Assembly: GCA_017536765.1 (NCBI GenBank)
Contig: JAFXGV010000014.1
Span: 1-36,624, forward strand
Source of the DNA: Bacteroidaceae bacterium
Lineage (GTDB): Bacteria > Bacteroidota > Bacteroidia > Bacteroidales > Bacteroidaceae
Reading direction: 5' to 3'
DNA length: 36,624 bases
Both the position numbers and the translations under genes were made by a program. Position 1 is the first letter of the stretch, and each line of letters opens with the position of its first letter. The notes under the pieces are model-generated. The model did not search any database and was not told where the DNA came from. It saw only the letters and a program-made list of their open reading frames with translations. Shown piece by piece: positions 17,576-23,359 of the stretch.

Positions 17576-18214
17576 ATGAAAACCGCCGAACTATATAAAA
17601 AGGTAATAGAGTACTTCGAGGTGGCTATGCCCATAGCCGAAACCGAGCTCAACTACTCCACCCCGTTTGAACTGCTCATAGCCGTGATACTGTCGGCACA
17701 ATGCACCGACAAGAGGGTGAATATGGTTACGCCCGACCTCTTTGCACGCTACGACACTCCCCGGGAACTGGCAGCCGCCCACCCCGACGAGGTTTTCAAC
17801 TACATAAAAAGCATATCGTACCCCAACAACAAGGCAAAGCATCTTGTGGGTATGGCGCAAAAGCTGTGCAGCGACTTTGGCGGTGAAGTGCCCGCCACAC
17901 TGGAGGAGCTCGTAACGCTGCCCGGCGTGGGAAGGAAAACAGCCAATGTAATACAGGCCGTGGTGTTCAACAAGAGCGCTATGGCGGTAGATACCCACGT
18001 GTTCCGCGTGAGCCACCGCATAGGGCTTGTACCCAAGCGCTGCACCACCCCCTACAGCGTGGAAAAAACGCTTATGAAATACCTGCCCGCGGATATTGTG
18101 CCCAAGGCACACCATTGGCTCATACTGCACGGGCGATACACCTGCAAGGCACGCACACCGCTGTGTGGCGAGTGTGGACTCAAGGAGTTTTGCAAAGAGT
18201 ATCAAAAAGGCTAA
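17576..18214 (+). CDS. nth: Endonuclease III (DNA glycosylase/AP lyase)
   Basis: A 212-residue base-excision repair enzyme that removes oxidised pyrimidines. The helix-hairpin-helix LPGVGRKTANVI carries the catalytic Lys, and AVDTHVFRV gives the catalytic Asp. The C-terminal 4Fe-4S loop is CKARTPLCGECGLKEFC, with the exact Cx6Cx2Cx5C spacing. I start at 17576 since the upstream ATG at 17522 lies before the hairpin and adds a non-family extension. It is the last GC-richer gene before the AT-rich restriction island. Confidence 0.96.
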   Translation: MKTAELYKKVIEYFEVAMPIAETELNYSTPFELLIAVILSAQCTDKRVNMVTPDLFARYDTPRELAAAHPDEVFNYIKSISYPNNKAKHLVGMAQKLCSDFGGEVPATLEELVTLPGVGRKTANVIQAVVFNKSAMAVDTHVFRVSHRIGLVPKRCTTPYSVEKTLMKYLPADIVPKAHHWLILHGRYTCKARTPLCGECGLKEFCKEYQKG

Positions 18215-18231
18215 GAGAAGGTATATTTATT

Positions 18232-18262
18232 TTTGCCTATTATCGTTTTATTTATAAATTTG
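18232..18262 (+). promoter_or_regulatory. Canonical Bacteroidota promoter of the restriction-modification operon
   Basis: TTTG (18232-18235), 19 bases, then TAAATTTG (18255-18262): a full match to TTTG-N19-TAnnTTTG, the best promoter in the window. Initiation about 7 bases further gives an almost leaderless transcript, as the methyltransferase ATG is at 18271. A second -7-like TATTTTTG overlaps at 18228-18235. Confidence 0.6.
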
Positions 18263-18270
18263 TATTCACT

Positions 18271-19059
18271 ATGAGCAACGAAATAAATATCGAAAATTGG
18301 AAGCAAACCGACATGAATGTAGATAGCTTGTGGATAATACCCGAAAGGGCTAAAGGAGGCAAGCACAAAAATATATACCACGGCAATTTTGTTCCTCAAA
18401 TTCCCAATCAATTAATACGACGATATACTAATATTGGCGACACGGTTTTGGAATTGTTTTCAGGGAGTGGGACCACTCTTTTTGAATGCGAAAATCTTAA
18501 AAGGGATTATATAGGTTTTGACATAAACGAAAAAATCATAAAATATGTGAACGACACAATGGGCGATAGTCCTGCCATTGATTATGAAATCAAAAACGCA
18601 GATGTAACAGATTCAAATGATTTTGCTACAAACATTGAGAATTGGCTTGCCAAGAGAAACAAATCACAAGTTGATTTTATGATAGCCCACCCGCCATATT
18701 TAGATATCGTAAAATTTACTGATGATGAAAGAGACTTATCAAACATTTCTAAAATAGATTTATTCATAGAAAAAGTAACTGATGCCATATGCAATGGCTT
18801 TCAATATTTAAAAAAGAATAGTTATTTTGCAGTTGTAGCAGGTGACGTATATAAGAAAAGCGAAGTTATTCCTCTTGCATTCCTCATTATGAACTCCATT
18901 CGGCAAAAACTAAAGGTAAAAATGAAAGGTATCATTATAAAGAACATTGAAGGGAACAGAGGAAAGTTAGGAACACAAGATATTTGGAAATATCGAGCTC
19001 TTAAAAGTGATTATTTTTTATTTAAACACGAATACATTTTTGTATTCAAGAAAATATAG
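18271..19059 (+). CDS. DNA methyltransferase (N4-cytosine/N6-adenine type), first gene of R-M operon
   Basis: A 262-residue SAM-dependent amino methyltransferase. It has NIYHGNFVPQIPNQLI (34-49), which looks like motif X, then motif I ELFSGSGTT (61-69), FDIN, and the catalytic motif IV HPPY (140-143, AHPPYLDIV). The order X-I-IV with no large insert is unlike classical beta-class enzymes. xPPY does not settle whether cytosine N4 or adenine N6 is modified. The specificity part probably lies in the C-terminal third. The start at 18271 follows a promoter; an upstream frame into nth is excluded. It is AT-rich unlike nth, and the HNH gene starts 3 bases past its stop. Confidence 0.85.
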   Translation: MSNEINIENWKQTDMNVDSLWIIPERAKGGKHKNIYHGNFVPQIPNQLIRRYTNIGDTVLELFSGSGTTLFECENLKRDYIGFDINEKIIKYVNDTMGDSPAIDYEIKNADVTDSNDFATNIENWLAKRNKSQVDFMIAHPPYLDIVKFTDDERDLSNISKIDLFIEKVTDAICNGFQYLKKNSYFAVVAGDVYKKSEVIPLAFLIMNSIRQKLKVKMKGIIIKNIEGNRGKLGTQDIWKYRALKSDYFLFKHEYIFVFKKI

Positions 19060-19062
19060 AAT

Positions 19063-19743
19063 ATGACAAAAACCGAATTATTCATAAAACTGGCAAGCCC
19101 AAACGAAAAAGGAGAAAGCAGATGGGTTCGTTCTACCGAGTTTACAGGAGAATATACCGATTTACAGTTAGGGAATGGGGGTAGCTGGTGTAGGGCAAGT
19201 TCAGCCTTAGCAAAAAAATATAATTTAGAATTTGACAAATCTATCACAAGCGGAAACTCTATCGACGCTATTAGATTAGCCGGATTTAGAACCGATAAGA
19301 CATTTAATCAAAACATTCGTAAAGATATAAAAGATTTTTACAAGACACAACGATGTGTTATGTTGGGTGTTTGTGGATTCTCCGAAAACACAAAAATTGA
19401 AATTGACCATAAAGATGGCAGAAAAGTAGATTGGCGTGTTTCCAATCCTTCAACACAACATATTAACGACTTTCAGCCATTATGTAAGGCTGCAAACGAC
19501 GTAAAGCGCCAAATATGCAAAGAGTGTAAACAAACCGGAAAAAGATGGAATGCGCAAAATATTAAAGGTAACCCGTATCCCTTCTACGAAGGTGATGAAA
19601 AATACACCGAAGATTTGGGCTGTGTAGGATGCTATCAATACGACCCTGTTGCATATAGAAAAGAGTGCGTTGCAAGAGTTTCAAAGGAATCTTCTGAGCA
19701 TACGGCTGAATTTATAATGAAAAAGCTGTATCCAACTGAATAA
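19063..19743 (+). CDS. HNH-type restriction endonuclease
   Basis: A 226-residue probable Type II restriction enzyme. The central HNH (beta-beta-alpha metal) nuclease signature is IEIDHKDGR (112-120) with a following Asn in CKAANDVK (about 145). Two cysteine pairs, CKEC (152-155) and CVGC (187-190), probably hold a structural zinc. The N-terminal 90 residues have no motif I recognise and may help read DNA. Its position between two methyltransferases resembles Type IIS systems that cut with HNH enzymes (HphI, MnlI); family membership is inferred. Recognition sequence unknown. Confidence 0.78.
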   Translation: MTKTELFIKLASPNEKGESRWVRSTEFTGEYTDLQLGNGGSWCRASSALAKKYNLEFDKSITSGNSIDAIRLAGFRTDKTFNQNIRKDIKDFYKTQRCVMLGVCGFSENTKIEIDHKDGRKVDWRVSNPSTQHINDFQPLCKAANDVKRQICKECKQTGKRWNAQNIKGNPYPFYEGDEKYTEDLGCVGCYQYDPVAYRKECVARVSKESSEHTAEFIMKKLYPTE

Positions 19744-19755
19744 GTAGAGAATTTT

Positions 19756-20886
19756 ATGACTACCCATGTTTTTATTGTAGATGAACAAAGTTTCAAAGTA
19801 CATTTGAAATATATGTTCGTTGGTACAGGTTCTAAGGAGAAAGATATAGATTTCAATGGGGGTGCCGGTTCTCGATTACACCCGCAGACTGAAAATGGCT
19901 TAGTGTCTATGATGGCAGATTTTAGTCGGGTACGAATTGGCGACTTTGTAATATTCTACGTTCAAGCCACAAAAGGGAGGGAAGGTAAATTTTATGGTAT
20001 ATATGAGATAAGCAGTTCTCCATTTCATGAACCAAGCGGGGCTGCACAGTATTTATTCAATGAGTTAGGCAAAAATTTGACTTTTAGGGCAAGAATTAAA
20101 CCATATAAAGTGTATTCCGAAGGTGTTACAGAATGGGAAGCATTAGATGAAATTAAAGGAATAATTGCTCCTAATCAAATGTTGTGGAGTTTAATCTATA
20201 GGAAGCTAAAAGGTAATCGCGGAAACACGATGATTACCATATATGAAGCCGAACGATTATTTGGGCTTATTAGAGCAAAGAACAGCAACCAACATATTGT
20301 TGGTAATAGTTACTCTTATAGCAACAACAAACAAATTGCACTCGACACGCAACCAAGTAATTATACAGGTGATACACATATCACATTTAACATATTACCC
20401 AGATTATTAAACAAAAAAGCTAATAACAAAGCATACGAATCACACTTGCAAATGTTTATTACCCAAAATTTGGGCAACCACAAATCTCTCGATACAGCTC
20501 TAAATACAACCCATCAGGTTATAGAATGGCTGGGCAATGAGGTATCTTGTGGTGTTGGAATGCAAAGAATAGATATTATGTTCTCCAAAAGGAACGATGA
20601 TATAGATAGAGAGATAGTACCGATAGAATTAAAAGCACGACCGGCATCAGCTGACAACATAAGGCAAATTTCTCGTTATATAGATTGGATACAGCAATAT
20701 TATATCTCTAACAGGCCGAGCACAATTCGTCCTGTATTAATCTGCGCAGCTTCAAACCTAAGCCGGGTTACAAAACAAGCATTTTATAATTTTAACGCTC
20801 AATACAATGGAATCTGTTTGCCATTAGAATATATAGAAGTTACAGATAATGGGAACGATTTGATATTCACAAATACGCCGTATTAA
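19756..20886 (+). CDS. PUA/EVE-like domain fused to a PD-(D/E)XK-like nuclease
   Basis: A 376-residue protein. The N-terminal part (about 1-165) has RIGDFVIFYVQATKGREGKFYGIYEI (60-85), which fits a PUA/EVE-like barrel of the kind that reads modified bases. The C-terminal part (about 220-350) has Asp272-Ile (RIDIMF, 271-276), then IELKA with Glu291 and Lys293, and QISRYIDWI: a PD-(D/E)XK pattern similar to NucS-type nucleases. I do not recognise a named enzyme. It could be a modification-dependent nuclease, a second restriction subunit, or a partner of the HNH enzyme. It starts 12 bases after the HNH gene and ends 3 bases before the D12 methyltransferase. Confidence 0.7.
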   Translation: MTTHVFIVDEQSFKVHLKYMFVGTGSKEKDIDFNGGAGSRLHPQTENGLVSMMADFSRVRIGDFVIFYVQATKGREGKFYGIYEISSSPFHEPSGAAQYLFNELGKNLTFRARIKPYKVYSEGVTEWEALDEIKGIIAPNQMLWSLIYRKLKGNRGNTMITIYEAERLFGLIRAKNSNQHIVGNSYSYSNNKQIALDTQPSNYTGDTHITFNILPRLLNKKANNKAYESHLQMFITQNLGNHKSLDTALNTTHQVIEWLGNEVSCGVGMQRIDIMFSKRNDDIDREIVPIELKARPASADNIRQISRYIDWIQQYYISNRPSTIRPVLICAASNLSRVTKQAFYNFNAQYNGICLPLEYIEVTDNGNDLIFTNTPY

Positions 20887-20889
20887 ATA

Positions 20890-21891
20890 ATGAACTACAT
20901 TGGCTCGAAATATTCACTGCTCGACTTTATTGATAAAGCCATAAAAAGTATTGTTGGTGACGATCTTTCGCAACTTGTGTTTTGCGATCTATTTGCAGGC
21001 ACAGGTATTGTTGGTCGTCATTTCAAGACACAGGTACGCAAAGTAATTTCGAACGACATTGAATATTATAGTTATGTTCTAAACCGCAATTACATTGGCA
21101 ACCATAAAGATTTTGAAGGCAAAGATGAATATATAAACAAACTTAATTCACTTGAAGGAATAGAGGATGGTTTTATATATACTCAATATTGTTTTGGTGG
21201 GGGCAATAACAGACAATACTTCTCTGACGAGAATGGGAAGAAAATAGATGCGATAAGAACTACTATTGAAAACTGGAAAATTAACGGAGACATTTCAGAC
21301 GATATATACTATTTTCTCATATGCAGCTTGATTGAATGTGCGGATAAGATTGCAAATACCGCATCTGTGTATGGTGCATTTCTTAAACACCTAAAGAAAT
21401 CGGCACAAAAGAAACTTGTTATGCAACCCGCCTATTTTCAACTTAATTGTAATGAACACGAGGTTTACAAACAGGATGCAAACCAATTAATCAAACAAAT
21501 CAAGGGAGATATTTTGTATCTTGATCCACCATACAACGCAAGGCAGTATGGTGCCAATTATCATTTACTAAATACAATCGCCGAATATAAGCCATTTGTA
21601 CCTAAGGGTAAAACAGGATTGAGAGAATACAACAAATCTAATTATTGCAGTAAAGCCGGAGTACAGAAATCATTTGAAAATTTAATTCGTGATGCACAAT
21701 TCAAATATATTGTTCTATCATATAACAATGAGGGATTGATGCCTGTTGAAACCATTAAGCATATAATGAGTAAATATGGTCAATATCAAGTATTTCAAAA
21801 AGAGTATCAGAGGTTTAGAGCCGACAAAAAGGAAAATCGCAATCATTTGGCAGACTCTACCGTTGAATATCTACATATATTAACAAAATAG
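20890..21891 (+). CDS. D12-class DNA adenine-N6 methyltransferase
   Basis: A 333-residue amino methyltransferase of the D12 (Dam-like, alpha) class. MNYIGSKYSLLDFI opens the protein (motif X), FCDLFAGTG (31-39) is the SAM-binding motif I, and LDPPYNARQYG with DPPY at 212-215 is motif IV. The region between, about 55-200, is the likely target-recognition part. It should methylate adenine in one strand of the site whose other strand is modified by the first methyltransferase, as in asymmetric Type IIS systems (inference). It is the last gene of the AT-rich operon. Confidence 0.9.
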   Translation: MNYIGSKYSLLDFIDKAIKSIVGDDLSQLVFCDLFAGTGIVGRHFKTQVRKVISNDIEYYSYVLNRNYIGNHKDFEGKDEYINKLNSLEGIEDGFIYTQYCFGGGNNRQYFSDENGKKIDAIRTTIENWKINGDISDDIYYFLICSLIECADKIANTASVYGAFLKHLKKSAQKKLVMQPAYFQLNCNEHEVYKQDANQLIKQIKGDILYLDPPYNARQYGANYHLLNTIAEYKPFVPKGKTGLREYNKSNYCSKAGVQKSFENLIRDAQFKYIVLSYNNEGLMPVETIKHIMSKYGQYQVFQKEYQRFRADKKENRNHLADSTVEYLHILTK

Positions 21892-22029
21892 AGTTTTACG
21901 AAACTATTACAGCCAAAAGAATTAATAAATTTAGTGTAAATGTAAATTGTTATAAATTATGTGATATGATTTCAAAAATTCTTTTATAATTTTTATTACC
22001 ATTTATTACCTCATTTATAATAAAAACAC

Positions 22030-22037
22030 TATTTTTG
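22030..22037 (+). promoter_or_regulatory. -7 promoter element of pgk (TATTTTTG)
   Basis: Exact TAnnTTTG in the AT-rich 217-base gap after the island, 72 bases before pgk. A small tggc/gcca hairpin lies in the leader just after it. The rest of the gap holds nothing I recognise. Confidence 0.55.
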
Positions 22038-22108
22038 CAAGGAATGGCCTTGTGCCAGGTAAGTGTGAATATAGATAATATTACTAATCATATTAAATTT
22101 CAGTAACT

Positions 22109-23359
22109 ATGACAATTGACCAGTTTAATTTCGCCGGAAAGAAGGCAATCGTTCGCGTTGACTTTAACGTACCTTTGAACGAAGAGGGCAAGATTACCGA
22201 TGATACACGTATCCGCGGTGCACTCCCCACACTCAAGAAAGTATTGGCCGATGGTGGCGCGCTCATCATCATGTCGCATATGGGCAAGCCCAAAGGCAAG
22301 GTTAATGCAAAATACTCTTTGAGCCAGATTGTTGATGCAGTATCCGAGAAATTGGGTGTTGCAGTTCAGTTTGCTCCCGACTGCGCAAAGGCTGCCGAGG
22401 CTGCCGCTGCTTTGAAGCCCGGTGAGGTGCTTATGCTCGAGAACCTCCGTTTCTATCCCGAGGAGGAGGGCAAGCCCGTTGGCATTGACAAGGAGGACCC
22501 CGCATACAACGATGCAAAGAAGGCTATGAAGGAGTCGCAGAAGGAGTTCTCAAAGACTCTCGCTTCTTACGCCGACTGCTACATCAACGATGCTTTTGGT
22601 ACAGCTCACCGTCGCCACGCATCTACAGCCGTTATCGCCGACTACTTCGATGCCGATAACAAGATGCTCGGTTACCTTATGGAGAAAGAGGTGCAGGCTG
22701 TTGACAACATCCTCAAAGATATCAAACGCCCCTTCACAGCCATTATGGGTGGTTCAAAAGTTTCTACCAAGATTGGTATCATCGAGAACCTTATGGACAA
22801 GGTTGACAACCTCATCCTCTGCGGTGGTATGACATATACATTTGCAAAGGCTCAGGGTGGACAGATTGGCCGCTCTATCGTTGAGGACGACAAGTTGCAG
22901 CTGGCTCTCGACATCATTGAGCAGGCTAAGGCCAAGGGCGTGAACCTTGTTCTTGCTACCGACTGCGTTGCTGCCGACGACTTCTCTAACGATGCCAACA
23001 CACAGGTATGCCCCGCAGGTGCAATTCCCGAGGGTTGGGAAGGCCTTGATGCAGGCCCAGAGGCACAGAAGGCTTTTGCAGCAGCTATCGTTGATGCAAA
23101 AACCATTTTGTGGAACGGCCCCGCAGGCGTATTCGAGTTCGATAACTTCACAGCCGGTTCACGTGCCATTGCCGAGGCTATCGGCAAGGCTACCGCCAAC
23201 GGTGCATTCTCGCTCATTGGCGGTGGCGACTCTGTAGCTTGCATCAACAAGTTCGGTATGGCCGACCAGGTGTCTTATATCTCAACAGGTGGTGGTGCTC
23301 TTCTCGAGGCTATCGAGGGTAAAGTGCTCCCCGGTGTTGCAGCCATCAAAGGCGAATAA
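22109..23359 (+). CDS. pgk: Phosphoglycerate kinase
   Basis: A 416-residue glycolytic enzyme that transfers phosphate from 1,3-bisphosphoglycerate to ADP. Family motifs are RVDFNVPL at the N-terminus, [19 protein letters not shown], the catalytic-loop [29 protein letters not shown] and the C-terminal LIGGGDS and [11 protein letters not shown]. Length is normal. Codon use is typical of a highly expressed gene and GC rises again from the AT-rich island before it. A 15-bp hairpin lies just past its stop. Confidence 0.97.

Follow-up and report, generated by a model that had tools for sequence, protein, structure and literature searches.

A horizontally acquired four-gene island between nth and pgk in a Bacteroidaceae bacterium and its candidate role as a modular Type II cassette for CATG

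A contig of a gut bacterium of the Bacteroidaceae (JAFXGV010000014.1, assembly GCA_017536765.1; its positions 1 to 36,624 are hereafter the window) carries between nth and pgk an island of four genes, two for DNA methyltransferases and two for nucleases. The locus raises the question of how two methylases and two nucleases would work in one unit and on which sequence. The best explanation, held with moderate confidence, was a modular Type II cassette directed at CATG that combines two methylases with two nucleases, one NlaIII-type and one EVE-NucS-type, and in which the third gene product (g3) would be a Type II partner and not a free Type IV enzyme. For g3 and for the first methylase, the Type II role and the CATG target are suggested by gene linkage and by the swapping of modules. 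The insertion and its genes are as follows.

18203..22013, + strand: extent of the insertion as judged from the unoccupied nth-pgk site in sister genome G562 (homology to the sister stretch L134 ends at approximately 18202 and restarts at approximately 22014)
18271..19059, + strand: g1 (M1), N6_N4-type methyltransferase with HPPY motif, 262 aa (PF01555, 1e-21; PADLOC MTase_II PDLC03351, 6.8e-75)
19063..19743, + strand: g2 (IceA), IceA/NlaIII-type HNH restriction endonuclease, 226 aa (PF05315, 7.3e-115; alignment)
19756..20886, + strand: g3 (R), EVE and NucS/EndoMS-like PD-(D/E)XK protein, 376 aa (predicted fold)
20890..21891, + strand: g4 (M2), D12-class N6-methyladenine (m6A) methyltransferase with DPPY motif, 333 aa, predicted product Cm6ATG (PF02086, 7.3e-51; PADLOC PDLC03257, 4.4e-136; Campylobacter jejuni methylome)

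The four genes and their insertion

The g2 match to the ICEA family, which we take to be the NlaIII family, spanned the whole protein and scored 382 bits against a cut-off of 24. An earlier note on this DNA had listed g2 as an HNH nuclease; the HNH part stood, and the protein is specifically of ICEA (NlaIII) type. The g4 protein was 54-62% identical to D12 methylases adjoining IceA in Helicobacteraceae loci. Both g2 and g4 are assigned to their families with confidence. An ICEA/NlaIII-family endonuclease and a nearby D12 m6A methylase are both present, and in the window g3 sits between them. The two methyltransferase types that the earlier note had read from their motifs were confirmed, with HPPY present in 65 of 65 g1 sequences and DPPY in 39 of 39 g4 sequences (length-filtered sets). 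The most plausible start of g1 was ATG at 18271, and the listed TTG at 18115 falls inside nth. Comparison of g4 with solved structures gave no match at 0.01, and NCBIfam gave nothing above its cut-offs. M1 of many loci without M2 had an extra N-terminal region of approximately 110-120 aa (L010, L012, L021, L034, L049, L052, L058 and L061) that is missing from M1 of the window.

By its predicted fold, g3 is an EVE domain (residues approximately 1-177) fused to a NucS/EndoMS-like PD-(D/E)XK nuclease domain (approximately 222-370), as the earlier note had proposed from the sequence. Profile matches to EVE (1.5e-4) and NucS_C (1.4e-3) were both under the Pfam cut-offs. Identity of g3 to 50 relatives from many phyla was 45-75%. 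A housekeeping role of g3 was ruled out, as it is a single copy in its own genome and only two of 44 genus genomes had a match (G000, the own genome, and G608).

The four ORFs (open reading frames) are intact, lie on one strand and are separated by gaps of 3 bp (g1/g2), 12 bp (g2/g3) and 3 bp (g3/g4), so that the layout given earlier was reproduced. Over 1-kb windows that lie mostly within the island, GC content was 0.32-0.38, compared with 0.48-0.52 for the adjoining windows, in line with the lower GC noted before. In the sister genome G562, with Nth 98.6% and Pgk 99.5% identical to those of the window, nth directly adjoins pgk, and the comparison placed the left island edge inside the last nth codons. 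The island is a horizontally acquired insertion at nth-pgk. A mobile-element search of 18100-22200 gave no long terminal repeats, and no tRNA was detected within the window. Promoter-like matches were not above chance (20 versus 18.2), and terminator-like matches numbered 5 versus 2.6 by chance. M1, IceA and M2 occurred together in three of the 44 genus genomes (G000, G608 and G599). In G599, M2 directly follows IceA with no R between, and M1 and the start of an apparently broken IceA are on a separate contig. A remote M2 match (34%) was found in genus genome G573.

Linkage and exchange of the modules

A pattern scan of genome contigs gave 78 loci with a g3 relative, for which same-strand genes within 3.5 kb were recorded. 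A locus within 400 bases of a contig end was marked as edge. The arrangements were as follows.

M1-R: 32 loci, 9 edge
M1-R-M2: 16 loci, 1 edge
M1-ICEA-R-M2: 11 loci, 1 edge
M1-ICEA-R: 3 loci, all edge
R-M2: 5 loci, 1 edge (L029 falls a few bases outside the edge mark)
M2-R: 1 locus, edge
R-M1-ICEA-M2: 2 loci
M1-R-ICEA-M2: 1 locus
M1-R-HNH: 3 loci, 1 edge
M1-HNH-R-M2: 1 locus
R alone: 3 loci, all edge

M1 and/or M2 was found within 3.5 kb of the g3 relative in 75 of the 78 loci, and the other three were cut by contig ends. All four genes stood together in 14 loci, 11 of them in the order of the window, and three more showed the first three genes of that order before the contig ended, so the grouping is no accident. 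Neither nth nor pgk was present within 13 kb in the four loci checked (L004, L006, L007 and L064). The genes thus co-occur elsewhere at other sites, which upholds the earlier description of an acquired restriction-modification island. Flanking gene clusters were common to four pairs among the 17 IceA-bearing loci (L004/L005, L008/L028, L044/L073 and L057/L078). In L065, L074 and L081, M1 was present as a fragment only. Of the HNH proteins, those from L047, L058 and L061 were weakly related to ICEA (3.3e-7, 0.0042 and 0.00056), and the compared piece of the L056 HNH protein had no ICEA match. Gene order thus varies, different HNH proteins accompany the unit, and IceA has the look of an added module. 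In Campylobacter volucris, R (L078, 6001-7130) is split into two ORFs that correspond roughly to its EVE half and its nuclease half (approximately 197 and 198 aa). Phage sequences had no g3 match. Two g3 loci were found in viral contigs, one with M1 adjoining R (L217, IMG/VR) and the other with neither M1 nor a credible M2.

Loci with a single methylase occurred with either M1 or M2. Three R-M2 loci had full upstream context, and R of L029 begins 404 bases from the contig end. M1 was found elsewhere in none of the five R-M2 genomes searched (of six such genomes). M2 was searched in 35 genomes, several of them incomplete, which represented 29 of the 32 M1-R loci, the three M1-R-HNH loci and the three loci with R alone. 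No match at 1e-15 was found in 27 of them (25 of the 32 with M1), and eight had a match, the closest in G405 (57%) and G402 (43%). Since R occurs with M1 only and with M2 only, both methylases are inferred to act on the site of R.

An exchange was also seen beside M2 in Helicobacteraceae, where 71 of 121 genomes had M2 at E≤1e-40. In the 30 best M2 loci, examined with flanks of approximately 1.5 kb so that more distant or divergent partners would be missed, the gene adjoining M2 was IceA in 19 (some of them fragments), R in three, both in none and neither in eight. Two of the 19 IceA-M2 loci also had a full M1. R hence seems to be an exchangeable partner of IceA beside the CATG methylase.

Distance matrices of the proteins were compared with 500 permutations. 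M1-R (r 0.58, 60 loci), M1-M2 (r 0.78, 30 loci) and R-M2 (r 0.67, 36 loci) were matched by none of the permutations. Values for IceA, a set in which the divergent HNH proteins from L047 and L056 are counted, were r 0.43 with M2 (16 loci, 9/500), r 0.33 with M1 (20 loci, 4/500) and r 0.16 with R (19 loci, 91/500). Shared host phylogeny could also yield these correlations.

A mechanism consistent with these observations can be proposed. M2 would methylate the adenine of CATG on both strands, and IceA would cut CATG when unmethylated. R would serve as another restriction endonuclease under that mark, in which the EVE domain, a base-flipping fold of the PUA superfamily, may inspect a base of the site and the NucS-like domain would cut if the site is unmethylated. 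M1 would be a second methylase protecting CATG, in the manner of the methylase pair of DpnII-type systems at GATC; a DpnA-like action of M1 on single-strand or hemimethylated DNA is conceivable. If R does cut unmethylated DNA, either of M1 and M2 must suffice for the protection of its site.

CATG frequencies and competing explanations

For the own genome, CATG expectation was calculated with an order-2 Markov model on a sample of 348 kb, made of 20 stretches and the window without the island. CATG occurred 128 times on both strands against 2814 expected (observed/expected 0.045). CTAG (0.033) and GATC (0.152) were also scarce, and the other 13 palindromic tetramers ranged from 0.68 to 1.09. 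The window has six CATG sites against a shuffle mean of 200, and the island has three against 10.5 expected from its own composition.

18312..18315, + strand: CATG site in the island; the other two are at 19765 and 20026 (three of the six in the window)

Sister genome G562 (86% complete), with the empty site and no match to M1, IceA, R or M2, had no CATG in 20 kb where 85 were expected. The depletion is thus probably older than the insertion, and CATG avoidance as a proof of cassette function was rejected. The own genome and 18 relatives with stretches of at least 14 kb (two relatives below 2.5 kb were dropped) showed a bimodal CATG scarcity that is not explained by the cassette or by D12 methylases; only G574 of the six depleted genomes without M2 had a D12 match. 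Helicobacteraceae stretches L181-L216 were also bimodal (observed/expected 0.00-0.25 or 0.35-1.37). Three Helicobacteraceae genomes without an M2 match were nearly CATG-free.

Several observations weigh against the proposed CATG cassette. The presence of the cassette and CATG depletion go together only imperfectly. Within the genus, observed/expected was below 0.3 in nine of 19 genomes, three of three with M2 and six of 16 without (p 0.087), and this cut-off was set post hoc with lineage uncontrolled. At the same cut-off in Helicobacteraceae (four genomes without M2 and below 1.4 kb were dropped), nine of 13 genomes with a nuclease and M2 were depleted (R 3/4, IceA 4/7, M1 and IceA 2/2), as were three of ten without M2 and none of seven with M2 and neither IceA nor R nearby. 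This gave p 0.074 against the genomes without M2 and p 0.006 against these pooled with M2 alone, again with lineage uncontrolled. G440, a genome with R and M2, had no depletion (0.99), and nine Patescibacteria M1-R-M2 loci had values of 0.42-1.15. The best solved-structure match of M1 was a cytosine-N4 methyltransferase (5.6e-7, residues 44-98, around motif I only), so M1 could be an N4-methylcytosine enzyme; matches to the MboIIA and DpnA structures were weaker and likewise around motif I. A remote g3 relative on a Halobaculum plasmid (24%, L082 4737-5909), the only match in plasmids, lacks an annotated DNA methylase over the 10.8 kb examined and possibly stands alone. No g3 relative with a measured specificity was found. 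A Type IV function has been predicted for fusions of EVE and PD-(D/E)XK domains (Bell et al. 2020, PMC7641849).

On a rival view, g3 would be such a Type IV (modification-dependent) nuclease, which rides in the island against phages whose modified bases block IceA. Such an enzyme needs no methylase, yet in the 78 loci relatives of g3 lie near one wherever contig ends do not interrupt, R replaces IceA beside M2 in Helicobacteraceae, and the level of identity kept across many phyla suggests one fixed target. We regard this role as quite unlikely. The earlier note had suggested a combined system acting on unmodified and modified DNA; the part on modified DNA lost ground, since the linkage of g3 to methylase genes and its substitution for IceA next to a CATG methylase favour a Type II over a Type IV role. 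The same note had read the two methylases as a sign of an asymmetric Type IIS site. A Type IIS system, with two strand-specific methylases and one nuclease, would fit the different classes of the two methylases but is very improbable: g2 is NlaIII-type, the motif credited to the M2 counterpart in C. jejuni (Cm6ATG) is a palindrome for which one methylase suffices, and single-methylase versions occur with either methylase.

Two independent pairs could also be interleaved, IceA and M2 for CATG and M1 and g3 for another sequence. More loci have M1-R than any other arrangement (32 of 78, including the nine cut by contig ends), IceA distances show no clear co-variation with R, and IceA-M2 is already a complete known pair. 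On the other hand, R would have no protecting methylase in the R-M2 loci of Helicobacter, where M1 was absent from the genomes searched, M1 would lack a nuclease where M1-IceA-M2 occurs without R, and the distances of M1, M2 and R co-vary. C. jejuni methylomes, in the portion of the report available, assigned no m6A motif to the M1 counterpart and left one bipartite motif unassigned (PMC8743553). Interleaved pairs are thus doubtful, and the CATG cassette with two nucleases is preferred. A bolder form of the cassette is unlikely as judged here: g3 would found a new Type II class in which an EVE/YTH-type reader flips the CATG adenine and senses its N6-methyl group to tell self from foreign. The fold of modification-dependent nucleases and m6A readers would then be used in reverse, and with IceA two unrelated nucleases would stand under one mark, so that a phage evading one meets the other.

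Known systems and significance

The island shares an ICEA-family g2 and a D12 methylase g4 with the NlaIII and IceA1-HpyIM Type II systems for CATG, but its operon-like unit holds two further genes, M1 and the EVE-nuclease R, the latter lying between IceA and its methylase. DpnII-type systems combine a nuclease with a D12 and an N6_N4-type methylase. These methylases belong to the Pfam classes of M2 and M1 and protect one target, which is GATC. The island differs also in having a second nuclease; in its M1, motif I precedes HPPY, and the match to DpnA structures is confined to the region around motif I.

A likeness by description was found in C. jejuni, as far as the available parts of the reports go. 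Cluster X of HS:19 strains holds a sensor protein/putative methyltransferase, a restriction endonuclease, two hypothetical proteins and DNA methyltransferase 1718; the two strains had 99.1 and 99.6% of CATG methylated, which was credited to 1718 through a REBASE query. Two more m6A motifs were reported, RAATTY, for which the Cj0208 homologue is the likely source, and a bipartite motif with no gene given (PMC8743553). CATG is also among the motifs of the Helicobacter typhlonius methylome (PMC4705304). The ST-677 counterpart was described as iceA1/hpyIM with a further methylase (PMC4658567, PMC4687069), with iceA1/nlaIII so written and hpyIM termed CATG-specific in C. jejuni (PMC4687069). Like the island, these clusters (cjj5070_14950c-14910c and CjjRM3420_1722-1718) run from a methylase through an iceA-type or restriction enzyme and ORFs to an hpyIM-type D12 methylase. 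In those texts they are published as iceA1/hpyIM with an orphan methylase, and the two hypothetical ORFs are not called a nuclease; those of HS:19 (1719 and 1720) may be g3 in two pieces. The C. volucris locus has the full four-gene order of the island but R in two ORFs.

The domain types of g3 are like those of the predicted Type IV enzymes of PMC7641849, but g3 has methylases as neighbours and can stand in for a Type II enzyme. In Ureaplasma parvum, UpaP162, a CATG enzyme without a recognised domain that cuts blunt at CA^TG, is encoded in a methylase-nuclease operon (PMC6191088). Its likeness by description to the two-gene M1-R unit is a lead. An EVE nuclease acting as a CATG Type II enzyme was not described in the titles and abstracts of the matches listed from the open-licence literature.

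If the proposed cassette is right, EVE-nuclease fusions, at present predicted as Type IV, would include a family, found from Helicobacter to Patescibacteria, that acts as a Type II partner and whose target, CATG, can be predicted. One methyl mark could then serve two unrelated nucleases, and the two hypothetical ORFs of the C. jejuni ST-677/HS:19 cluster may be annotated.

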